A stretch of DNA of 64,000 bases from Oenococcus sicerae. GTDB lineage: Bacteria; Bacillota; Bacilli; Lactobacillales; Lactobacillaceae. The translations under genes were made by a program, and so were the position numbers. The stretch is from contig NZ_CP029684.2 of assembly GCF_004102045.2 (NCBI RefSeq), positions 558,001-622,000 on the forward strand. Direction: 5' to 3'. Each line of letters starts with the position of its first letter. The first letter of the stretch is position 1. Shown here in pieces: positions 26,635 to 41,593 of the stretch. The notes under the pieces were generated by a model. That model saw only the letters and a program-made list of their open reading frames with translations. It was not told where the DNA came from and did not search any database.

Positions 26635-27349
26635 ATTGTCGTTCTAAATAGACACGGTAACGATCACCTGCGTAATAAGTAGAAACAAATTCAAATGGTT
26701 TGCCATTAGTCAAATAAGATGTCTGCCGCAAAAATAGCGCCGCTTGGCCTGTGGTCAGACCCAGCCGTTGGCAAACAGTCTCATTAGCGATCACAGCCGA
26801 AAATTCCTGCACGACTTTGCCAAACTGAAAACCCCGTTCTTCAAGATATTCATATAAGCCGCCAGACATTTCCGACTTGGTAATATTACCAACCAAGCCG
26901 ACTGGTACGGTCGCGATCTCAAAAGCGATCGGTTCATCATCCCCAAAACGAACTCGTTCGATCGTGATAACGTCTTCATCTCGACCGATCTCCAAATTCG
27001 AGGCTTCTGCCAGAGTCGGCTGGTGTCTTCTGAAAACAATAAATTTTGATTTAGCCGTCTTGCCTTGCGACTGCATGATCTGCGTAAAACTCGTAATTCC
27101 TTTAAGGTTTTCAGAAATTTCAGTCGGTTGATCAGATACATAAGTGCCAGATCCCGGCTTACGGATCAATTTCCCCTGGTTAACAAGCACAGAGATCGCT
27201 TGACGCAAAGTCATACGCGAGACTTTATAAGCTTCTGCTAGGGCCCTTTCTGCTGGTAAACGACTGCCGCCGGCAAACTGTTTATTCTTGATTTTTTCAG
27301 CTATATCGTCGCTGATCTTCAAAAAAACCGGCATATTGTTCGTATTCAT
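26633..27349 (-). CDS. GntR/HutC-family regulator, NagR-like
   Basis: This 238-residue regulator has an N-terminal winged helix (about residues 5-72, with S-R-M-T-L-R-Q-A and G-S-G-T-Y-V) and a C-terminal UTRA ligand domain. It overlaps the end of nagA by 4 nt, so it is in the nagA operon. NagR/YvoA/DasR-type members bind amino-sugar phosphates and repress N-acetylglucosamine genes through dre sites; such a site occurs in the nagA promoter here. The regulator therefore probably controls its own operon. Confidence 0.85.
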   Translation of the reverse strand: MNTNNMPVFLKISDDIAEKIKNKQFAGGSRLPAERALAEAYKVSRMTLRQAISVLVNQGKLIRKPGSGTYVSDQPTEISENLKGITSFTQIMQSQGKTAKSKFIVFRRHQPTLAEASNLEIGRDEDVITIERVRFGDDEPIAFEIATVPVGLVGNITKSEMSGGLYEYLEERGFQFGKVVQEFSAVIANETVCQRLGLTTGQAALFLRQTSYLTNGKPFEFVSTYYAGDRYRVYLERQ

Positions 27350-28495
27350 TCAGCAACTCGCAGCTCATCGCCATCAACAAAGTTCGTTAACAGATCTTGT
27401 TTGGCTGACAATAGATTAAAGTTAGCCCGTTTACCAATTTCTAAGCCGCCAACATCTTTTAACCCGAATTCACGTGCCTGATTGACTGAAGTCATGAGAA
27501 CCGCGTCCGCGATCGAAGCGCCTGTAAAGGCTTGAACATTTTTAAAGCCGAGATCGTATTTTAAGACCGAACCAGCCAGATGACCGTTTTCCAAACGAGC
27601 AGCGCCGTCTTTAATGACGACTTTTTGACCGCCTAATTCAGAAACTTCATTTTCGCCTTGGCCTTTAGCCCGCATCGAATCAGTGATCACCTCGATATTC
27701 TTGGCAGTTTTCAGCTCATAAGCCAATTTGACCATTTCTGGGGAAACATGAATCCCATCCATGACGATTTCGACTTTAACTGATGGCGTCAAGACACCAT
27801 AACCCGTCACACCGGGTTCGCGGCCTTCCAATTGAGATTGGCGGTTATATAAATGAGTCACATGCGAAGCCAATGTCTGGCCTTTATTCATTTTCCAATA
27901 CGACTGGTTCGTATGGCCGGCTGAAAGCACCACACCCATATTATGCAGACCCGCTTCAAAGGCCGGACCGGACTTCTCTGGCGCATAAGTGACTAATTTG
28001 ATCAAACCATCTGCGTCTTTTTGCCAATCTTTAAATAAAGCCAAATCCGGTGCGATCACATATTCTGCTGGCTGGGCACCATTCATATCAGCATTAATGA
28101 AGGGGCCTTCCAAATGAATGCCGCGGATCATTGAATTGTTTTTTTGCCGCTAAAACAACTGATTCAAGTGCTTTTGCAATGCTGTCTTTGGTCTGTGTGA
28201 TCGTCGTTGGGAAAAAGCTCGTAATGCCTTCAGTCCGCAATTTTTGCGAAAAAGCATTTAAAGCATCAGCGTTACCATCCATCGTGTCAAAGCCATAGCC
28301 GCCATGCGTATGCACATCAATAAAGCCTGGTACCAAAATTGCACCAGCTGGCGCAGTCACAAGCTGGTCAGTATCTTTGGCGACAAAATCCTTCAATTCG
28401 CCAAGCTCTTCAATTGTATTAGAAAAGCGCAGAAAACCGTTTTTCACGATGCCTGCGCCAGTATAGATATCAATATTTTTTATTAATTTTGCCAT
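27346..28495 (-). pseudogene. nagA: N-acetylglucosamine-6-phosphate deacetylase, frameshifted
   Basis: NagA removes acetate from GlcNAc-6-phosphate, opening amino-sugar catabolism. The first part (28495 to about 28140) has the metal motif V-D-V-H-T-H-G-G. The rest, in another frame to 27346, has I-H-L-E-G-P-F, the A-G-H-T motif and the catalytic Asp in I-T-D-S-M. Between them is an A7 tract (T7 on the plus strand at 28139-28145). With six A the frame would be continuous and give a 382-residue protein of normal length; with seven it runs into a stop after G-R-P-L-H. The gene is therefore probably inactive unless slippage on the A tract restores some product. The promoter and regulator remain intact. 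Confidence 0.85.
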
Positions 28496-31255: not shown

Positions 31256-31660
31256 TCATTTCAAATCATCAAAAGATCCAGGCAGCAAATGCGCTAAATC
31301 GGTTTTAACGACGACACCACTCGTATTCGTTAAATAAATGGGCATGTTTTTATCAAACCATTCCACCATTACCTGACGGCAGGATCCACAAGGCGCGATC
31401 GCCCCTTCTGTTCGACCAGAGATCACCATTGCTTTAAAATGGTGCTGACCTTTTGCGATCGCAGAAAAAATTGCGGTCCTTTCAGCACACATTGTCGATC
31501 CGAAAGCGGCATTTTCAATGTTGCATCCTGGAAAAATATCGCCCGTTTCACTGAGCAAGGCGGCACCAACCGGAAAGTGGCTGTAAGGGATATAAGCTTT
31601 GTCTAGCTCTTCATCGGCAATTCTTTTTAACTCATCATATTCAGCTAATTGAACAGTCAT
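31256..31660 (-). CDS. cdd: Cytidine deaminase
   Basis: Cytidine deaminase converts cytidine and deoxycytidine to uridine forms for pyrimidine salvage. The 134-residue protein has the zinc and catalytic motifs C-N-I-E-N-A-A-F, C-A-E-R-T-A-I and P-C-G-S-C-R-Q of the homotetrameric class. Its ATG overlaps the stop of the LCP gene by 4 nt, so the two are co-transcribed although their roles differ. Confidence 0.95.
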   Translation of the reverse strand: MTVQLAEYDELKRIADEELDKAYIPYSHFPVGAALLSETGDIFPGCNIENAAFGSTMCAERTAIFSAIAKGQHHFKAMVISGRTEGAIAPCGSCRQVMVEWFDKNMPIYLTNTSGVVVKTDLAHLLPGSFDDLK

Positions 31661-32547
31661 TTCAAAGCGTCCTCTAACTCAGTGTGCACACGATCTTTTT
31701 CTGTCTGGCTCATCAGCTGCATCGATTGGCCATTGATCGTAGCGCTTGTCCCAACCATTTGGCCAGATTTGATATTATCTAAAGCTTTGCGGTAATTTAA
31801 AGCTAGGTTTTTAAAACTGCTAAAGGACAAATCAGTCAAGATATTGGAAGACAGCCGATTAATAAACTTTTGGTTGAAGATCGTCGTCGGATTCGTAGCT
31901 GCCTTAGCCAGGACGGCTTTGATCACCTGCTGCTGTCTTAATTGACGACCGTAATCACCACGAGGGTCCTGATGCCGTTCACGCACATAAGCTAACAGCT
32001 GATCACCCTGCATATCATAAGTAGTGCCATCGACAAAGGAGTGGCCAAATTCTGTAAAGGTCAGATTGGAAGTGACATTGACACCGTTAAGTGAGTTCAC
32101 GATCGATTCCAAACCACCCATATTGATCAAGGCATAACCATTCAGTTTGATATTAACCAGCTTCTCGACTTGTGCGATTGATGAATCAGCCGAACCGTAA
32201 GCATAGGCTGCGTTTAATTTGACCGTTTGGCCATTAATGATAATCGGTGTATCGCGCTGCAGACTTAAGAGCAGTGTCTGTTTTTTCTTAGGATTGACAA
32301 CTGCGATCATCATCGAATCCGTGCGCCCTTTATAACTGCGATCCAAAGCGCCTGTATCAGTCCCCAGCAGCAAAATAGCAATCGGCTTGCCAGCCTTTGT
32401 CACCGTGTCTGCCTTGTCGGCTGTCTTGATCGAACTGCTTTGGTGCATCTTTTGAATGGCACCCTGTGTGGTCCAAATAGCATAACCGCCAACGGCCGCG
32501 ACCGCCACAACAGCCAGCGAGAAAAACCAAATTATAAATTTTTTCAT
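31657..32547 (-). CDS. LytR-CpsA-Psr (LCP) family glycopolymer transferase
   Basis: LCP enzymes attach undecaprenyl-linked teichoic acid or capsule polymers to peptidoglycan outside the membrane. The 296-residue protein has one N-terminal membrane segment (about residues 4-24). The catalytic domain carries L-L-G-T-D-T near 60, G-R-T-D-S-M near 75, L-Q-R-D-T-P near 97 and Y-V-R-E-R-H-x-D-P-R-G-D-Y-G-R near 190, so the Arg and Asp residues that bind the pyrophosphate are present. It lies at the edge of the polysaccharide locus and may anchor that polymer; this link is inferred. Confidence 0.9.
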   Translation of the reverse strand: MKKFIIWFFSLAVVAVAAVGGYAIWTTQGAIQKMHQSSSIKTADKADTVTKAGKPIAILLLGTDTGALDRSYKGRTDSMMIAVVNPKKKQTLLLSLQRDTPIIINGQTVKLNAAYAYGSADSSIAQVEKLVNIKLNGYALINMGGLESIVNSLNGVNVTSNLTFTEFGHSFVDGTTYDMQGDQLLAYVRERHQDPRGDYGRQLRQQQVIKAVLAKAATNPTTIFNQKFINRLSSNILTDLSFSSFKNLALNYRKALDNIKSGQMVGTSATINGQSMQLMSQTEKDRVHTELEDALK

Positions 32548-32600
32548 TTATTCCCCATTATCGGTTAAAAAATTGACACAAAATCATTGTCTATAATAGC

Positions 32601-32638
32601 AAAAAAACAAATAGAAATTAAATACAATCCTATTTGTT
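32601..32638 (-). terminator. Terminator of the Ser-rich anchored protein gene
   Basis: AACAAATAG (32606-32614) and CTATTTGTT (32630-32638) form a 9-bp stem, and leftward a T7 run follows. The stem overlaps the stop codon. Confidence 0.75.
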
Positions 32639-33269
32639 AATGATTTTTCTGCAATTCAGCCAGTTTAGCAGGGCTTACGACCCTAGCCGCTAATTGATGT
32701 GTGTTATTGATACTGCTGCTTTGTGAGTAATAATTGCTGATTGCCTGGTCCAAAGAAAGCGTAAAAGCGGCTGTAATTGGTCTGGTTACTGTGATTTGAC
32801 CGTTGCTGATCGTAATCTTAGCGGATAAAATATCAGAAATACCAGCAAAACTATCAGCATTAGGCACATAACGATTGATTTCGCCATTACTGATCGAACC
32901 GGTCATATCCCAATAATTTTGAGAAAAGGTAAATTGATCGCTCGGCACAGCATTTTTATTTGGAAAGGCCGCTTGAATCAGAATCGCAATTTGATTATTT
33001 AAATCAATGGAATTCCAACTGGTCAGACTTGAAGAACTGCTAGTAGAATTAGCTGACGCGGAAAGTGAAGAAGAGGTCGAAGACTCGGATGAAGATGCTG
33101 GCGTACTTTTCGTGCTGGCCCTTTTAGACGTAACTGTTTTTTTAACAGAGCTTTCTTTTTTGGAACCAGAGCTGCCATTCAAAGCTCGTGCTGCGAATAC
33201 CGAAAGACCCACCACGAAAAACAAAACGATAACGGAAGCAATAATTTTTGTCCTTAAACCAACTTTCAT
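32637..33269 (-). CDS. Membrane-anchored protein with Ser-rich linker, unknown function
   Basis: I do not recognise this 210-residue protein. It has one N-terminal hydrophobic segment (about residues 9-28), a Lys/Ser/Thr-rich low-complexity linker (about 32-85) and a C-terminal extracellular domain of about 120 residues that begins W-N-S-I-D-L-N-N-Q. The linker suggests wall spanning. GGGAGAT precedes the ATG. It has its own terminator and lies between the LCP gene and the surface protein genes, so a role at the cell wall is likely but unproven. Confidence 0.65.
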   Translation of the reverse strand: MKVGLRTKIIASVIVLFFVVGLSVFAARALNGSSGSKKESSVKKTVTSKRASTKSTPASSSESSTSSSLSASANSTSSSSSLTSWNSIDLNNQIAILIQAAFPNKNAVPSDQFTFSQNYWDMTGSISNGEINRYVPNADSFAGISDILSAKITISNGQITVTRPITAAFTLSLDQAISNYYSQSSSINNTHQLAARVVSPAKLAELQKNH

Positions 33270-33361: not shown

Positions 33362-35746
33362 TTAAGAACGAATTGCTCTTTCATCAATCCAATAAGTCTT
33401 GTTGGCTGTTAGATCTTTGACTTGAACATATTTATAAGTCTGGCCAGCACGTAAAGTAACAGCTTCTTTTAGGACCGTGACTGAATGGCCGTTATAGTTC
33501 CTACCCCAAGCATTAGGTCCGAGCGTCGTTGCACTCGTAAAGGCTGGACCAGCATTTAAGACCCAATCATTTCGAGCTGAGTCATAGATCTTAGCTGAGC
33601 GGTTAATGATATTAGTTGAAGTAATCGTGGCTGGTTGAAACGAATTCAAATCCTGTTCAGAAACATATACATTATCTTGTCCATTAGAATACAGGATTTT
33701 ATATTCCCACTGTGAGTTTGAATATGACTTAGCCGTGACCGCAACAACTGTACCGATCCACTTACGGTGCGGTGATAAGTTATATCCATTTGTTTCCCTA
33801 GATGCATTTGAAGATATCTGAACAACGGTACCAACGCTAAATTTGGCCGGTACAGGTTTAGGAATACCAACATTCTCCAAATAACTTTCCCACAAATCTG
33901 AGCTGCTAATCGGGTCTACACTAGTCGAAATCACCGAAAGAGTGGCCGTTGTTGCTTGCAAATCCCAAGAAGACGGTACGGTAAAAGTGAATTTATCATT
34001 AATTTCAGGAATAACCATCTGCGAATTTTGTCCAATGATGATTTTTACCTTTAATTTTGGATTTATTCGTTGTCCATTTTCTCCCGAAACTACTGATGTC
34101 AAGACCGAACCACTGATAACCCTTTGATTATTCACTAATTGTGATGTTACTTTAGGAACCGGAAAGACACCCACGATCACATTATTTGAAACATTGAGTG
34201 AACCATAACCGGCCCAAAAATGAATAGGGGCCAAATGTTGGCCAGGCCAAACCGTCTGAACCCAATCCACTAAAGGCGTATCAAACACATTATCTTTAAT
34301 TGTAATGTTCCCGACATGGGTCGAGTGTTGTCCAACACCACTAGAGTAAGCAATAAGCTTTCCACTAGCATTCTTGTAAGGCAAAAATTGATTATCAGAA
34401 ATAACAATATTACTGCTCTGCTGGCTGATAACGTTGTGAGCTTTTTGGTTTGGATCAACTTTAGACATATAACCAGCATCCCAACCGCCATTGTTATAAG
34501 CAGCATCTAGTTGTATGGATTCAGCATAATAATCATGTGCATTAGACTCACCAATGCTGGTTTGTCTTACTAGATCCGGAGCATATCCGATAAATTTATT
34601 GTTAGAAAATTTAGAATTCTGGAGCCCACCTAAATCAAAAATATGTTCACCTTTCGTTTCTACCATCGTGAAGGAGTTATGGTTAACATTCCAGTTATTT
34701 CCGTGATCAGTCATAATAATGAAAAAATCACCTTTAATAAGATCATGGGCTTGAATGTTAACATTAGACATCGTAAAGTTTGAAACACCATCAATAGCAC
34801 GAGTACCTGTTGCTAAACCAACCCATATCATTTGTCCATTAACAACTAAATTGGTGTTATTACCGCTAATTGAAGTGTTGGACGAGATAATAATATTTCC
34901 AGCAGTTGAATTTAAATTTTTAGGGCCAGCCGCGCCTACATTAAAGTTCCCAGATGGCAACTGTATATTGGTTCCGGCATGATTAGACGCGTATACAAAA
35001 GCTAACTGCAATTGTTCATCATTTTGATCACCTGAATATTGAGTCTGCAAAGGAACGATATATTCAGACCCATTGACGGTAGCTTGTACCAATGCAAGTG
35101 AAGAAAGCTGTAAATCTTGTTCGGCGATATGAGTATTATGTAAACCATCTTGAAAGAACACTTGATATTCCCAGTTTGAGCGAGAATATGTTTTTCTCAT
35201 AACCCTCGTGACGGTCCCAACCCATCCGCGGTGTGGCACGAGATCATACCCGTTTGTCTCAGAAATTGCTGTACTTTTGATTTCAACGTGATCGCCAATT
35301 TTAAATTGAGGCTGATCGGAAATATCTATAAATTGAGATGAGTTTGGTGCTGTAGAAGAAGCTGAAGAAGTACTTGAAGAGTTGCTACTCATGGAACCTT
35401 CTGAAGAAGCAGATGCCGAACTTGCGGCAACGCTAGAAGTTGTTATAGAAGACAAAGAGTTTTGGTCATCGCTTTGGCTTGTCATAGATGCACAAGAAGA
35501 ACTGTTAGATGAGTTACTGCTGTCCGCCTGTGAAAAATCACCAGTGGCTACACTAGCCGCACTAGATGCAAAACTAGAGGAACCATTATCAACACCTACA
35601 GTTGAGAGCTCGGAAGGCGTAACCACATCAGCGTTAACGGTCTGTTGATTCATGTAACTACAACTAGAAAAAAATAAAAAAGTACCAGCACCAACTAACC
35701 ATAGCTTACCTGATTTATATATTTTTTTCCTGACTAAAAAACTCAT
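33362..35746 (-). CDS. Large surface protein: KxYKxGKxW signal, beta-helix, SH3-like repeat
   Basis: This secreted protein of 794 residues begins at the ATG at 35746 with K-K-I-Y-K-S-G-K-L-W, matching the KxYKxGKxW signal motif known from large LAB surface proteins and glucansucrases. A Ser/Ala-rich linker (about residues 45-135) follows, then a 65-residue module with E-T-N-G-Y-D-L-x-P-H-R near 145-210. The centre (about 250-550) is rich in N-N, S-N-N and I-x-I-x-D-N repeats and looks like a right-handed beta-helix as in polysaccharide lyases and depolymerases. A second copy of the 65-residue module and one SH3_8/GW-like repeat ending K-T-Y-W-I-D-E-R close the protein. No LPxTG is present. 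It may bind or cut the polysaccharide made by the neighbouring locus; that is inference. Confidence 0.75.
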   Translation of the reverse strand: MSFLVRKKIYKSGKLWLVGAGTFLFFSSCSYMNQQTVNADVVTPSELSTVGVDNGSSSFASSAASVATGDFSQADSSNSSNSSSCASMTSQSDDQNSLSSITTSSVAASSASASSEGSMSSNSSSTSSASSTAPNSSQFIDISDQPQFKIGDHVEIKSTAISETNGYDLVPHRGWVGTVTRVMRKTYSRSNWEYQVFFQDGLHNTHIAEQDLQLSSLALVQATVNGSEYIVPLQTQYSGDQNDEQLQLAFVYASNHAGTNIQLPSGNFNVGAAGPKNLNSTAGNIIISSNTSISGNNTNLVVNGQMIWVGLATGTRAIDGVSNFTMSNVNIQAHDLIKGDFFIIMTDHGNNWNVNHNSFTMVETKGEHIFDLGGLQNSKFSNNKFIGYAPDLVRQTSIGESNAHDYYAESIQLDAAYNNGGWDAGYMSKVDPNQKAHNVISQQSSNIVISDNQFLPYKNASGKLIAYSSGVGQHSTHVGNITIKDNVFDTPLVDWVQTVWPGQHLAPIHFWAGYGSLNVSNNVIVGVFPVPKVTSQLVNNQRVISGSVLTSVVSGENGQRINPKLKVKIIIGQNSQMVIPEINDKFTFTVPSSWDLQATTATLSVISTSVDPISSSDLWESYLENVGIPKPVPAKFSVGTVVQISSNASRETNGYNLSPHRKWIGTVVAVTAKSYSNSQWEYKILYSNGQDNVYVSEQDLNSFQPATITSTNIINRSAKIYDSARNDWVLNAGPAFTSATTLGPNAWGRNYNGHSVTVLKEAVTLRAGQTYKYVQVKDLTANKTYWIDERAIRS

Positions 35747-35849
35747 TATCTCTCCCACACAAAACAGCATTCCAACCTTTTATATCAAGCAACAATCTAT
35801 TACATGTCTAACAATTTAAAATTTTAAAAACATATATACGAAGAACAAA

Positions 35850-37823
35850 TTAGTCCAAGCTCTGCAAATCATACTGTTGAATAATACTGATCAAATGATC
35901 AGCATACTCGGGATCAGTCGCATAACCATCATCCGATAGATTTTGTGCAGCTTGTTGATAACTACCAGCAACTGATCTCGAAACATTAGCATATTTAGCT
36001 TTATTCATAGTATTCGCATAGTCCAGAAAAGAATACTCTGCAGAAGCATAATTATTAAAAGTACCGCTAATTGTTGATTCAGAACCGTTTATATACTCAC
36101 CGGTTTGGTAAGTCACGGTCCCATTAGCATATTGAGAGCCATTTGCTTTAATACCAAACAAGTTATGATTCACCGATGCAAGCATACTTGAACCCCAGCC
36201 CGATTCAAGGATTGCCTGCGCAACCATTATCGATGCATATAATCCGCTGACATTAGCCACATTCACAGAGCTTCCAACAATGCTATATAGCCAAGTCTGT
36301 TGAGTAGCCAAAAGACCGGTTGTGATTAAATTAATTGTTTTAGCTGACACACCCCGAGCATCAATCCAATAAGTCTTGTTGGCTGTTGTGTCTTTGACTT
36401 GATAATAAGTATAGGTTTGACCGTCACCACGAGTGGTGGTGGCCTGTTGAATGACAGTCACAATATGACCATCATAGGCAGCACCCGAGCCGTTTGAAGC
36501 TAAGGTCGACCAAGAAGTCAGAGCCGGACCGTCATTTAAGAGCCAATCATTACGACTTGCATCGTTAATGATGGCCTGATAACTGACTGATTTAGTGCTG
36601 GTGATCGTTCCTAACACAGCTCTTTCATCAATCCAATAAGTCTTGTTGGCTGTTAGATCTTTAACTTGAACATATTTATAAGTCTGGCCAGCACGTAAAG
36701 TAACAGCTTCTTTTAGGACCGTGACTGAATGGCCGTTATAGTTCCTACCCCAAGCATTAGGTCCGAGCGTCGTTGCACTCGTAAAGGCTGGACCAGCATT
36801 TAAGACCCAATCATTTCGAGCTGAGTCATAGATCTTAGCTGAGCGGTTAATGATATTAGTTGAAGTAATCGTGGCATAGTTTGAAAGTGATAGAGATCGA
36901 AGATCAATCCAATAGGTTTTGTTGGCTGTCACATCTTGTACTTGAGCATATTGATAATTTTTGCCATCTGAAACACGCTTAGTTGTCACTATCTGCAAAA
37001 CTGAAATCGTATCGCCTACATAATGATTACCATAATCACTAGCAGTCATCGTTGAAGCGCTTGTATGAACCGGACCGTTATAGAGGACCCAGTCATTACG
37101 ATCACCTGAGATTTTGCCATATTGATCAGACTGGGTCGTTTTAATGATTTGATCATAAGACACACCCCGAGCATCAATCCAATAAGTCTTGTTGGCTGTT
37201 GTGTCTTTGACTTGATAATAAGTATAGGTTTGACCGTCACCACGAGTGGTGGTGGCCTGTTGAATGACAGTCACAATATGACCATCATAGGCAGCACCCG
37301 AGCCGTTTGAAGCTAAGGTCGACCAAGAAGTCAGAGCCGGACCGTCATTTAAGAGCCAATCATTACGACTTGCATCGTTAATGATGGCCTGATAACTGAC
37401 TGATTTAGTGCTGGTGATCGTTCCTAACACAGCTCTTTCATCAATCCAATAAGTCTTGTTGGCTGTTAGATCTTTAACTTGAACATATTTATAAGTCTGG
37501 CCAGCACGTAAAGTAACAGCTTCTTTTAGGACCGTGACTGAATGGCCGTTATAGTTCCTACCCCAAGCATTAGGTCCGAGCGTCGTTGCACTCGTAAAGG
37601 CTGGACCAGCATTTAAGACCCAATCATTTCGAGCTGAGTCATAGATCTTAGCTGAGCGGTTAATGATATTAGTTGAAGTAATCGTGGCTGGAAAGGATGT
37701 CGTTTGAGCTTGTGCTAAATAATTTTTCTGGTAAAAAAAAGAACTATTCATCCCAATAATCGCAAGCATCATACCGACGAAAAGACCAATAATTACTTTA
37801 TTAAATGATCTGATGGATTTCAT
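35850..37823 (-). CDS. Cell-wall hydrolase: five SH3-like repeats plus GH73 glucosaminidase
   Basis: This secreted protein of about 657 residues has an N-terminal signal segment (about residues 9-30). Five repeats of about 80 residues follow in the order R1-R2-R3-R1-R2, each ending K-T-Y-W-I-D, of the SH3_8/GW-like wall-binding type. The C-terminal domain (about 500-657) is a GH73 endo-N-acetylglucosaminidase with A-Q-A-I-L-E-S-G-W-G (catalytic Glu) and N-L-F-G-I-K. It would cut the peptidoglycan glycan chain. The start is the ATG at 37823 or the TTG 6 nt upstream, which is closer to the AGGGAG. The 5' half is duplicated in the next gene (see repeats). Wall remodelling or autolysis is the likely role. 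Confidence 0.85.
   Translation of the reverse strand: MKSIRSFNKVIIGLFVGMMLAIIGMNSSFFYQKNYLAQAQTTSFPATITSTNIINRSAKIYDSARNDWVLNAGPAFTSATTLGPNAWGRNYNGHSVTVLKEAVTLRAGQTYKYVQVKDLTANKTYWIDERAVLGTITSTKSVSYQAIINDASRNDWLLNDGPALTSWSTLASNGSGAAYDGHIVTVIQQATTTRGDGQTYTYYQVKDTTANKTYWIDARGVSYDQIIKTTQSDQYGKISGDRNDWVLYNGPVHTSASTMTASDYGNHYVGDTISVLQIVTTKRVSDGKNYQYAQVQDVTANKTYWIDLRSLSLSNYATITSTNIINRSAKIYDSARNDWVLNAGPAFTSATTLGPNAWGRNYNGHSVTVLKEAVTLRAGQTYKYVQVKDLTANKTYWIDERAVLGTITSTKSVSYQAIINDASRNDWLLNDGPALTSWSTLASNGSGAAYDGHIVTVIQQATTTRGDGQTYTYYQVKDTTANKTYWIDARGVSAKTINLITTGLLATQQTWLYSIVGSSVNVANVSGLYASIMVAQAILESGWGSSMLASVNHNLFGIKANGSQYANGTVTYQTGEYINGSESTISGTFNNYASAEYSFLDYANTMNKAKYANVSRSVAGSYQQAAQNLSDDGYATDPEYADHLISIIQQYDLQSLD
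36346..36875 (-). repeat. 530-bp internal direct repeat (modules R1-R2), left gene
   Basis: The block 36346-36875 is repeated at 37159-37688 with no difference that I can see, at an offset of 813 bp. Equivalent copies lie at 38573-39102 and 39386-39915 in the neighbouring gene, so the block occurs four times. Confidence 0.85.
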
Positions 37824-37942
37824 TGACAAAATAATGCACTCCCTTTTCTTTTTAGTGCTAACTAAGCAATAAGATGATTTTAACAATGATATTTTGCAGG
37901 AATAAGACAAGGGATAGAACTAAGCACTATTTTTTAAAAACT
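36346..37942. repeat. 1,597-bp duplicated block, left copy
   Basis: This copy matches 38573-40169 at an offset of 2,227 bp, with identity broken at both ends (T versus G before 36346; T versus A after 37942). It covers all five repeat modules, the signal peptide and the 5' region of the GH73 gene. The right-most 17 bp equal the end of the flippase gene. Confidence 0.9.
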
Positions 37943-37947
37943 TATAG

Positions 37948-40050
37948 CTAAGCAATTCTTGCCAACGTGTTCCAATAATTAGCATCACCATAAAAGATAT
38001 CCAGATCTAACGGGCCGTTGTATCCCGTTAAACTTCCATTATCTGTATATTGGAAAATAGTCGGGTGGCTCCAAGCTCCATAAGAATTGCTATCAGTCCA
38101 AGGGCTACTTTGATAACCGGTTGGATCGTCATTAGCGTATTGGGCAACCCACAAACCATAATTGCTTGCAACAGAGGACCAGTTATACTTCGTAGTAACA
38201 CTTTTGGACATGTAAATTAGTGGACGAACACCAGTAAGCTTATATACAGTATCAAGCCAGGTCTTAGCCCATGCAACACCTTGATTCATAGCGTCACCCT
38301 CCCAATCTAAAACAAGCAAGGATTGACCGTTCAAATATGATTTAATCTGCTTAACAAAATAATTTGCTTGATCTACAGCGTTGCCAACGCTTGCAAAATG
38401 ATAAAGTCCTAATCTTTTACCAGCCTTTAATGTGCTTGCAACCTGATTAGCCATTGCAGGATTAATGTACGCAGTCCCTTCGGTCGCCTTCACAATCACA
38501 AAATTACCAGCGACCGTTCCATTACTAATTCCTGACTGATAGTTCGAAATATCATAACCATTCAAAAAGATGGACACACCCCGAGCATCAATCCAATAAG
38601 TCTTGTTGGCTGTTGTGTCTTTGACTTGATAATAAGTATAGGTTTGACCGTCACCACGAGTGGTGGTGGCCTGTTGAATGACAGTCACAATATGACCATC
38701 ATAGGCAGCACCCGAGCCGTTTGAAGCTAAGGTCGACCAAGAAGTCAGAGCCGGACCGTCATTTAAGAGCCAATCATTACGACTTGCATCGTTAATGATG
38801 GCCTGATAACTGACTGATTTAGTGCTGGTGATCGTTCCTAACACAGCTCTTTCATCAATCCAATAAGTCTTGTTGGCTGTTAGATCTTTAACTTGAACAT
38901 ATTTATAAGTCTGGCCAGCACGTAAAGTAACAGCTTCTTTTAGGACCGTGACTGAATGGCCGTTATAGTTCCTACCCCAAGCATTAGGTCCGAGCGTCGT
39001 TGCACTCGTAAAGGCTGGACCAGCATTTAAGACCCAATCATTTCGAGCTGAGTCATAGATCTTAGCTGAGCGGTTAATGATATTAGTTGAAGTAATCGTG
39101 GCATAGTTTGAAAGTGATAGAGATCGAAGATCAATCCAATAGGTTTTGTTGGCTGTCACATCTTGTACTTGAGCATATTGATAATTTTTGCCATCTGAAA
39201 CACGCTTAGTTGTCACTATCTGCAAAACTGAAATCGTATCGCCTACATAATGATTACCATAATCACTAGCAGTCATCGTTGAAGCGCTTGTATGAACCGG
39301 ACCGTTATAGAGGACCCAGTCATTACGATCACCTGAGATTTTGCCATATTGATCAGACTGGGTCGTTTTAATGATTTGATCATAAGACACACCCCGAGCA
39401 TCAATCCAATAAGTCTTGTTGGCTGTTGTGTCTTTGACTTGATAATAAGTATAGGTTTGACCGTCACCACGAGTGGTGGTGGCCTGTTGAATGACAGTCA
39501 CAATATGACCATCATAGGCAGCACCCGAGCCGTTTGAAGCTAAGGTCGACCAAGAAGTCAGAGCCGGACCGTCATTTAAGAGCCAATCATTACGACTTGC
39601 ATCGTTAATGATGGCCTGATAACTGACTGATTTAGTGCTGGTGATCGTTCCTAACACAGCTCTTTCATCAATCCAATAAGTCTTGTTGGCTGTTAGATCT
39701 TTAACTTGAACATATTTATAAGTCTGGCCAGCACGTAAAGTAACAGCTTCTTTTAGGACCGTGACTGAATGGCCGTTATAGTTCCTACCCCAAGCATTAG
39801 GTCCGAGCGTCGTTGCACTCGTAAAGGCTGGACCAGCATTTAAGACCCAATCATTTCGAGCTGAGTCATAGATCTTAGCTGAGCGGTTAATGATATTAGT
39901 TGAAGTAATCGTGGCTGGAAAGGATGTCGTTTGAGCTTGTGCTAAATAATTTTTCTGGTAAAAAAAAGAACTATTCATCCCAATAATCGCAAGCATCATA
40001 CCGACGAAAAGACCAATAATTACTTTATTAAATGATCTGATGGATTTCAT
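37948..40050 (-). CDS. Cell-wall hydrolase: five SH3-like repeats plus GH25 muramidase
   Basis: This secreted protein of about 700 residues has the same signal segment and R1-R2-R3-R1-R2 repeats as its left neighbour but a different catalytic domain. The C-terminal part (about residues 500-700) is a GH25 N-acetylmuramidase with G-Y-D-I-S-N-Y-Q, the catalytic D-W-E in L-V-L-D-W-E-G-D and W-V-A-Q-Y-A. It would hydrolyse the MurNAc-GlcNAc bond. The 5' region abuts the flippase gene with no separate terminator, so it is probably read with the polysaccharide operon. No holin gene is nearby, so this is not a prophage lysin. The start has the same ATG/TTG choice as the neighbour. Confidence 0.87.
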   Translation of the reverse strand: MKSIRSFNKVIIGLFVGMMLAIIGMNSSFFYQKNYLAQAQTTSFPATITSTNIINRSAKIYDSARNDWVLNAGPAFTSATTLGPNAWGRNYNGHSVTVLKEAVTLRAGQTYKYVQVKDLTANKTYWIDERAVLGTITSTKSVSYQAIINDASRNDWLLNDGPALTSWSTLASNGSGAAYDGHIVTVIQQATTTRGDGQTYTYYQVKDTTANKTYWIDARGVSYDQIIKTTQSDQYGKISGDRNDWVLYNGPVHTSASTMTASDYGNHYVGDTISVLQIVTTKRVSDGKNYQYAQVQDVTANKTYWIDLRSLSLSNYATITSTNIINRSAKIYDSARNDWVLNAGPAFTSATTLGPNAWGRNYNGHSVTVLKEAVTLRAGQTYKYVQVKDLTANKTYWIDERAVLGTITSTKSVSYQAIINDASRNDWLLNDGPALTSWSTLASNGSGAAYDGHIVTVIQQATTTRGDGQTYTYYQVKDTTANKTYWIDARGVSIFLNGYDISNYQSGISNGTVAGNFVIVKATEGTAYINPAMANQVASTLKAGKRLGLYHFASVGNAVDQANYFVKQIKSYLNGQSLLVLDWEGDAMNQGVAWAKTWLDTVYKLTGVRPLIYMSKSVTTKYNWSSVASNYGLWVAQYANDDPTGYQSSPWTDSNSYGAWSHPTIFQYTDNGSLTGYNGPLDLDIFYGDANYWNTLARIA

Positions 40051-40169
40051 TGACAAAATAATGCACTCCCTTTTCTTTTTAGTGCTAACTAAGCAATAAG
40101 ATGATTTTAACAATGATATTTTGCAGGAATAAGACAAGGGATAGAACTAAGCACTATTTTTTAAAAACT
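38573..40169. repeat. 1,597-bp duplicated block, right copy
   Basis: This is the partner of 36346-37942. It begins within the catalytic-domain junction of the GH25 gene and ends inside the last codons of the flippase gene (stop at 40154-40156), so this copy sits in the original context. Confidence 0.9.
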
Positions 40170-41593
40170 ATATTTAACACAAAATTAATTTCTTTCGTGA
40201 TAATCAAACCAATTAGATCAATACCCCAAAAAATGATACTGACAATTAATAGCTCTAAGAAAATATTCGTGATTTGAATATTTAGAAGATTCCAAGCCAA
40301 AACACCTAGAAAAGCCACAGCTGCGATGATTAAAGGTTTGATCATTAATTTCAAAATCTGCAAAATTGAAGATTTGAGTGCGACCTTCATTAAGACGTAA
40401 AAATTGAAAGCAAAGGTCACATAAAAATTAATCGCCACAAACAAAGCCAAACGATCAATGTTACCGGCAAGAATGCCAATCGTGATAAATGAGATCGTGA
40501 TCGCCGTAGAAATAAGACCGGTCTTCATCAAAGTCTTCGTCATATTGCGAGACTGATAGATACCGCCAATCGTCGTGGTGATTAATTGAATCCAAGTGGT
40601 CAGCGATAAAATCTGAAAAGGAATAATAGCCCCATCCCATTTGTGGCCAAACAAAAAACGAATAATTAGTTCTGAGTTGCTCGATAAATACACTGACAAG
40701 GGTATCCCAACAATCAACAAAAAGCGCAGTACCTTTAAATAAACTTTTTTGATCGTGGCGACATCTTCCTGATAGTTAGCTAAGACAGGCTGCATCACCG
40801 GAACAATCACATTGGTAAAAATATTATTCGGATACGTGATCATCTGATAGGACTTGCCATAATTTCCCAAGGCTGTTTGGCCAAAAAATTTACCGACTAA
40901 TAAATTATCAAGATTTCGAGAAAAGTAGTTAATGATGCCAAATTCAAATTGATAGGTTGAAAAATCACGAATCTTCTTAAGAGCTCGTTTATCAAGTCCT
41001 TTTAGAATTTTTAGTTTGGAAAAATGAAAATAAGCAATGAAGTTGACAAAGGCTGGTATCAGGCTAGTAAGGATCAGCGAGTAGACGCCAAAACCAAGAA
41101 AAGCGGTCACAATTCCTGTCGTACCACCAATCAGATAAGCTAAGAGGCCTGTTATGTTAATGTGCTTGAACTCTTGTCTTTTTTGTAGCAAAGATAAAGG
41201 CACGACTGACATCATTGATAAAATCAAATTAGGCGCCAACATCCAGCTTAATAAAAGATAAATTTTATCATTATAAAAATAACTGACTGGAATTCCCAAT
41301 AAACCAAAGACTGCACCAATGATCAATGACCAAAAAGTAAGAATTTTGAATAAAGATGAATAATCACGGTCGTTTAGTTCGTGGCTTTGAACAATAGCTG
41401 GCCCAATGCCCAGCTCAGAAAGCAGTTGAAAAAAGGGCAGGAATACCAAAATAATATTTAGAACGCCATAGGTTTTAGGCCCTAGTAGGCGAGATAAAAC
41501 AATCGTGACTGCAAAATTTGCAATAACACCCGCATACTGACCAATTGCCGTATAGACGACGCCCTGTTTGAATTGTCGTTTAATTTCCTGCAT
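40154..41593 (-). CDS. Wzx-type polysaccharide flippase (MOP superfamily)
   Basis: This 479-residue membrane protein has about 12-14 membrane segments and an N-terminus (V-V-Y-T-A-I-G-Q-Y) and R-L-L-G-P-x-x-Y-G-V motif typical of polysaccharide exporters related to TuaB/WzxC. It would flip undecaprenyl-linked repeat units across the membrane for polymerisation. Its ATG overlaps the stop of the GT4 gene (TAATG). It partners logically with the Wzy-like protein encoded at 45054-46421. Confidence 0.88.
   Translation of the reverse strand: MQEIKRQFKQGVVYTAIGQYAGVIANFAVTIVLSRLLGPKTYGVLNIILVFLPFFQLLSELGIGPAIVQSHELNDRDYSSLFKILTFWSLIIGAVFGLLGIPVSYFYNDKIYLLLSWMLAPNLILSMMSVVPLSLLQKRQEFKHINITGLLAYLIGGTTGIVTAFLGFGVYSLILTSLIPAFVNFIAYFHFSKLKILKGLDKRALKKIRDFSTYQFEFGIINYFSRNLDNLLVGKFFGQTALGNYGKSYQMITYPNNIFTNVIVPVMQPVLANYQEDVATIKKVYLKVLRFLLIVGIPLSVYLSSNSELIIRFLFGHKWDGAIIPFQILSLTTWIQLITTTIGGIYQSRNMTKTLMKTGLISTAITISFITIGILAGNIDRLALFVAINFYVTFAFNFYVLMKVALKSSILQILKLMIKPLIIAAVAFLGVLAWNLLNIQITNIFLELLIVSIIFWGIDLIGLIITKEINFVLNIVFKK

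Follow-up and report, generated by a model that had tools for sequence, protein, structure and literature searches.

Two adjacent genes of Oenococcus sicerae, a cider bacterium, encode putative secreted wall hydrolases that share an identical wall-binding platform and carry different catalytic domains, GH25 in one and GH73 in the other. We consider it probable, at roughly three chances in four, that this platform was recently duplicated, with the GH25 domain on the copy at the side of the flippase gene wzx and the GH73 domain as the old resident of the slot, and that both products serve as paired wall hydrolases. The genes lie within a stretch of 64,000 nucleotides that was analysed as a whole (hereafter the window, to which unlabelled coordinates refer), part of a single-contig genome of 1,664,394 bp that is 99.9% complete.

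An earlier note on this DNA had claimed a 1,597-bp match at a constant offset of 2,227 bp, and base-by-base alignment bore this out. Positions 36346-37942 and 38573-40169 agree at 1597 of 1597 bases in one unbroken exact match, outside of which no further run of at least 15 bp was found at the same offset between positions 34000 and 42000. This was the sole full-length pair in the genome, and chance is excluded as the source of the identity. Both hydrolase genes are on the minus strand, with their 5' ends at the high coordinates, and read in that direction the block comprises the last 16 bp of wzx, a leader of approximately 0.1 kb, a signal peptide and five SH3-like repeats, which are Pfam GW domains (PF13457). 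The note had listed the 5' region, the signal peptide and all five repeats, to which the 16 bp of wzx can now be added; it had also placed the end of the identity where the catalytic domains begin, and the final identical base is indeed the second base of a Ser codon after the fifth repeat (TCC versus TCA), with the catalytic parts diverging one base further on. As the platform alone is common to both genes, identity stops at module edges.

Copy A of the platform (38573-40169, minus strand) occupies the original place beside wzx (40154-41593, minus strand; PF13440, 1e-68) and is continuous with it; wzx ends at position 40154, so that its 16-bp 3' end within copy A stands in its natural place. 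Copy B (36346-37942, minus strand) is preceded by the GH25 gene and begins with debris of wzx, namely a displaced, exact duplicate of positions 40154-40169 located at 37927-37942 (minus strand), which comes just after the stop of the GH25 gene and serves no flippase there. As a wzx tail precedes the GH73 gene, copy B is in its upstream part a duplicate of the segment next to wzx. The copies are identical in non-coding sequence and at silent sites as well, and with the displaced remnant of a neighbouring gene they constitute a recent segmental duplication.

The first gene (37948-40050, minus strand) encodes a predicted GW5-GH25 hydrolase of 700 aa counted from an ATG, although its true start may be a TTG at position 40056, which is preceded by a GGGAG box at a distance of 9 nt. 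The second (35850-37823, minus strand) encodes a predicted GW5-GH73 hydrolase of 657 aa from an ATG, with an alternative TTG at position 37829. Five PF13457 stretches were found in each protein, preceded by an N-terminus that was judged signal-like by eye. The single GH25 muramidase domain (37951-38568, minus strand; PF01183, 3e-36) scored 125.7 bits against a cut-off of 27 and contains a DWE motif in keeping with the DxE active site; it matched the solved autolytic lysozyme 4kru (2e-14), with LDWEG aligned to an LDIETTEG stretch. The single GH73 glucosaminidase domain (35853-36344, minus strand; PF01832, 4e-30) scored 105.5 bits against a cut-off of 30.2, and its solved relatives included FlgJ (3vwo) and Lmo1076 (3fi7), the AILESGWG motif, which holds the catalytic Glu, aligning with AALETGWG of FlgJ. 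These assignments support the proposal that a single wall-binding platform is combined with two catalytic domains that differ in predicted bond specificity. A single-sequence search of solved structures with the GW array gave no match, its match to PF13437 (HlyD_3) was regarded as spurious, and matches in a promoter scan of the locus were no commoner than in shuffled sequence.

The surroundings of the two genes were compared in four relatives (G001, G002, the O. oeni DSM 20252-type genome G003, and G004) from a genus set of seven genomes. In the window, wzx is the last gene of an eps1-like cluster and forms the upstream border of the slot, a context in agreement with the eps1 cluster known from O. 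oeni (PMC4047060); the downstream border consists of genes for a 210-aa secreted protein and a LytR-CpsA-Psr protein (31657-33269, minus strand; PF03816 for 31657-32547). G001, G003 and G004 all have wzx, a GH73-bearing gene, the gene for the 210-aa secreted protein and the LytR-type gene in this order, which also occurs in G002 across a contig break, so that wzx lies beside GH73 in all four. No GH25 gene was found between wzx and the LytR-type gene in any of these four genomes, and the comparison thus indicates that the pairing is derived. The resident GH73 domain is joined to five GW units in G004, and in G001 and G002 to a body judged by eye to be beta-helix-like, with SH3-like modules. A protein body resembling the latter is present in the window in the adjacent 802-aa secreted protein (33362-35770, minus strand), which carries SH3-like modules and a KxYKxGKxW-like signal just below the Pfam cut-off. 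All that is left of the slot gene in G003 (L091, 10282-10944) is the catalytic domain with a portion of one GW unit; there is a stop within the matched stretch, and the gene has probably decayed.

GW-bearing enzymes were also encountered outside the slot. A GW5-GH25 gene is present at a separate locus in O. oeni DSM 20252 and in its sister genome G004, the latter of which owns both glycosidases on GW arrays that are 43% identical in protein and between which megablast found no near-identical DNA. A further GW5 array, in G001 (L096, 5645-7741, minus strand) and with a close relative in G002, is joined to a C39-like peptidase (PF13529), a third catalytic type on the GW platform within the genus. 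A slot without GH25, GW-GH25 genes located elsewhere and the diverged arrays of G004 together argue that the shared identical platform was derived in the lineage of the window. The window array is about equally distant from those of all the relatives (42-45% aa), and an origin from the GH73 gene or from another gene therefore fits alike. When contigs were scanned with the full hydrolase protein no relative was returned, and in an alignment-based contig scan O. oeni DSM 20252 was the only genome returned. We infer a single-copy ancestor of the locus from these other species, the present species being represented by one strain.

Further exact repeats occur inside the array itself. In each copy of the block, GW units 1-2 are identical to units 4-5 over 530 of 530 bp at an offset of 813 bp (39386-39915 and 38573-39102 in copy A; 37159-37688 and 36346-36875 in copy B; all minus strand). 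A fifth copy of unit 1, 260 bp long with one mismatch, forms the C-terminal end of the adjacent 802-aa protein (33375-33634, minus strand). The unit 1 copies share their starting base (GCCACGATTACT), and the four unit 2 copies all end at one base (GGTGTGTC), after which three different continuations follow. With exact internal copies of 530 bp and a unit in a third gene, recombination has evidently spread over the locus. The two unit pairs are identical here, whereas the corresponding units of G001 have 57-58% DNA identity, with positional orthology moderately supported; in the unit tree, G001 units 2 and 5 join, followed by window units 2 and 5 (84/90, a moderate support, with long branches flagged). 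Repeated conversion inside an array of constant unit number would best fit this unit identity, independent duplication of the units in each lineage being a possible alternative.

The absence of any difference over 1597 sites places the upper bound of divergence at approximately 0.19% (95%). No match to MutS1 or MutL above the curated cut-off was found in this genome, and recombination between diverged copies is relaxed where these proteins are lacking. To judge from the sequence, the shared platform arose recently, in this lineage, against a background that lacks MutS and MutL. The two suggestions that had been made from the identity of the copies, a very recent event and homogenisation, both gain from these data, the first through the bound on divergence where mutS and mutL are absent and the second through the unit copies inside the array. 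The note's wider reading, module shuffling caught in progress, is upheld in part: the identity is recent, and the process may still be under way. O. oeni has lost mutS and mutL and is reported to be hypermutable, with a mutation rate 100 to 1000 times that of other lactic acid bacteria (PMC6498615); if that rate holds here, the platform identity would be younger still, or maintained. The loss of mismatch repair known in O. oeni seems to reach this species.

Gene conversion alone would offer a different history, in which the 5' halves of two older genes in tandem had diverged until that of one was recently overwritten by that of the other, the GH73 gene by the GH25 gene or the reverse. The identity ends where homology would end, the array is homogenised internally in its 530-bp pairs, and MutS and MutL are absent, all of which are in favour of such a history. 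However, the identical tract enters 16 bp of the wzx coding sequence, and such homology would not have existed beforehand ahead of the second gene; nor was a fringe of diverged homologous sequence seen at either edge. Pure conversion is less likely on both counts. Tandem GH25 and GH73 genes were, moreover, present in none of the four relatives, and we regard this explanation as unlikely, though not far-fetched.

The slot behind wzx could in principle be a standing exchange site in Oenococcus for catalytic domains on a shared GW platform, the muramidase being reversibly gained and lost in this species through the perfect repeats and the mix of cutters varying between cells or strains, which we hold to be quite doubtful. 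An enzyme-switching device, in which strains or cells gain or lose a 2227-bp platform-GH25 unit through the direct repeats so that the neighbour of wzx is either GH25 or GH73, appears very improbable. Perfect direct repeats of 1597 bp do flank the GH25 domain, and one crossover between them would remove 2227 bp and leave wzx, platform and GH73 in the order of G004; the slot also varies by species, holding GW-GH73, beta-helix-SH3-GH73, a truncated GH73, or GH25 plus GH73. No recombinase gene was found among the open reading frames beside the locus, however, and every tandem duplication is unstable in this manner, so that instability would not point to a programme. That the assembler placed one real platform twice is barely credible. 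Short reads do have difficulty with exact repeats of 1.6 kb, but the genome is a single, nearly complete contig, and the sequence differs on either side of the two copies, giving four distinct flanks, with a wzx tail following directly on the 3' end of GH25. A single platform, moreover, could not yield one wzx-platform and two platform-catalytic junctions without gene loss, and the usual error is a collapsed repeat and not an additional copy.

For the recent duplication that we prefer, the following course is proposed. GH73 would be the old resident of the slot behind wzx, and a recent duplication would have taken in, as one segment, the final 16 bp of wzx, the leader, the signal peptide and the GW array. 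A GH25 domain, from a clade already on GW arrays in the genus, would have ended on the copy beside wzx, giving the order wzx, platform, GH25, wzx tail, platform, GH73. Its arrival could have preceded or followed the duplication and could have proceeded via crossover, conversion or end joining, as the sequence fits each of these. Homologous recombination between GW units may then have homogenised the units of the array and given one unit to the neighbouring gene. In the functional scheme that we infer, the signal peptide would export both hydrolases, and their retention on wall polymers, for example teichoic acids, is presumed to be non-covalent and to depend on the five GW repeats. The predicted target of GH25 is the MurNAc-GlcNAc bond, and that of GH73 is the GlcNAc-MurNAc bond; two glycan-cleaving enzymes that complement each other would thus be delivered to one wall site.

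The phylogeny of the GH25 domain bears on its source. In a tree built with family members and Oenococcus phage lysins, the window domain was placed as sister to the GW-GH25 domains of O. oeni and G004 (98/96), from which position it was probably already GW-linked before reaching the slot. A larger group (100/99) also took in Oenococcus phage lysins, the lysin of the organism's own prophage and a Lactococcus phage lysin, which suggests that the window domain probably has an older relation to phage lysins. The own prophage was rejected as the nearest, direct source, as the GW-linked domains are closer (65-67% versus 58%) and the tree agrees. A GH25 match with apparent stops elsewhere in the genome was considered as a relict of an ancestral GW-GH25 gene and proved to be the intact prophage endolysin. 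This protein (L095, 6976-8037, plus strand; 353 aa), encoded within a 45.4-kb prophage, combines GH25 with modules of the SH3-like kind; similar ones occur in the 802-aa surface protein and in lysins of Oenococcus phages, so that putative wall-binding modules are common to phage and host. A 45.3-kb prophage with a 16-bp attachment sequence has been reported in O. sicerae UCMA15228 (PMC9867325), and that sequence has exactly two occurrences here, 45.4 kb apart with the phage GH25 lysin between them, which makes UCMA15228 or a strain close to it the most likely source of the DNA. In O. oeni the GW-GH25 locus has an alpha/beta-hydrolase gene as its neighbour; a search for that gene gave only 37% matches in this genome, and the locus therefore has no clear counterpart here. 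Carriage of the GW array on a plasmid was also considered and set aside, as there were only weak matches to Listeria aut.

The locus is a new and well-resolved instance of the known modular evolution of lytic enzymes; the mechanism itself is not new. In pneumococcus and its Cp phages, the LytA amidase and the GH25 lysozymes LytC and Cpl-1 join one family of choline-binding repeats to different catalytic domains. The present case is similar in that one repeat family serves several catalytic domains and GH25 occurs in phage lysins and cell enzymes alike, but those enzymes are diverged paralogues with choline-binding repeats, whereas here the repeats are of the GW type and the genes are adjacent with an identical platform. 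Modular evolution has been argued since the work on chimeric pneumococcal and phage enzymes (Diaz et al. 1990, as cited in PMC4929436). The Listeria GW autolysins Ami, Auto, IspC and LygA are comparable in their non-covalent retention at the wall through GW repeats, which is presumed here, and in the several catalytic types per genome, and Listeria also has the GH73-type Lmo1076, whose structure was among the matches of the second gene's domain. In contrast, the window repeats are only approximately 25-28% identical to Listeria aut, and they are N-terminal whilst those of IspC are C-terminal (PMC10714868).

Within the genus, the GW5-GH25 hydrolases of O. oeni DSM 20252 (L093/L107) and G004 resemble the first gene in having a signal peptide, five GW units and a sister GH25 domain, yet they lie at another locus, their arrays are 42-44% identical to that of the window, and they have no identical partner. 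The GW5-GH73 gene of G004 and the beta-helix-SH3-GH73 genes of G001 and G002 share with the second gene the same slot between wzx and LytR, with 49-55% identity in the GH73 domain, but have no GH25 neighbour, and in G001 and G002 the N-terminal part differs. The uncommon feature of the window is that the copying step is preserved in DNA along with its debris. Domain swaps in lytic enzymes are usually inferred from diverged proteins, whereas here an intermediate is readable in DNA, consisting of identical platforms, a scrap of a neighbouring gene that marks the copied side, and relatives with the earlier order. Should strains differ at the slot, it would provide a natural system for the rate at which wall-hydrolase specificity changes without mismatch repair.

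Elsewhere in the window, nagA, encoding N-acetylglucosamine-6-phosphate deacetylase (27346-28495, minus strand), is present as two overlapping frames, compared with one 384-aa gene in O. oeni. A run of seven A residues lies near the break, which is possibly a real frameshift or a sequencing error.
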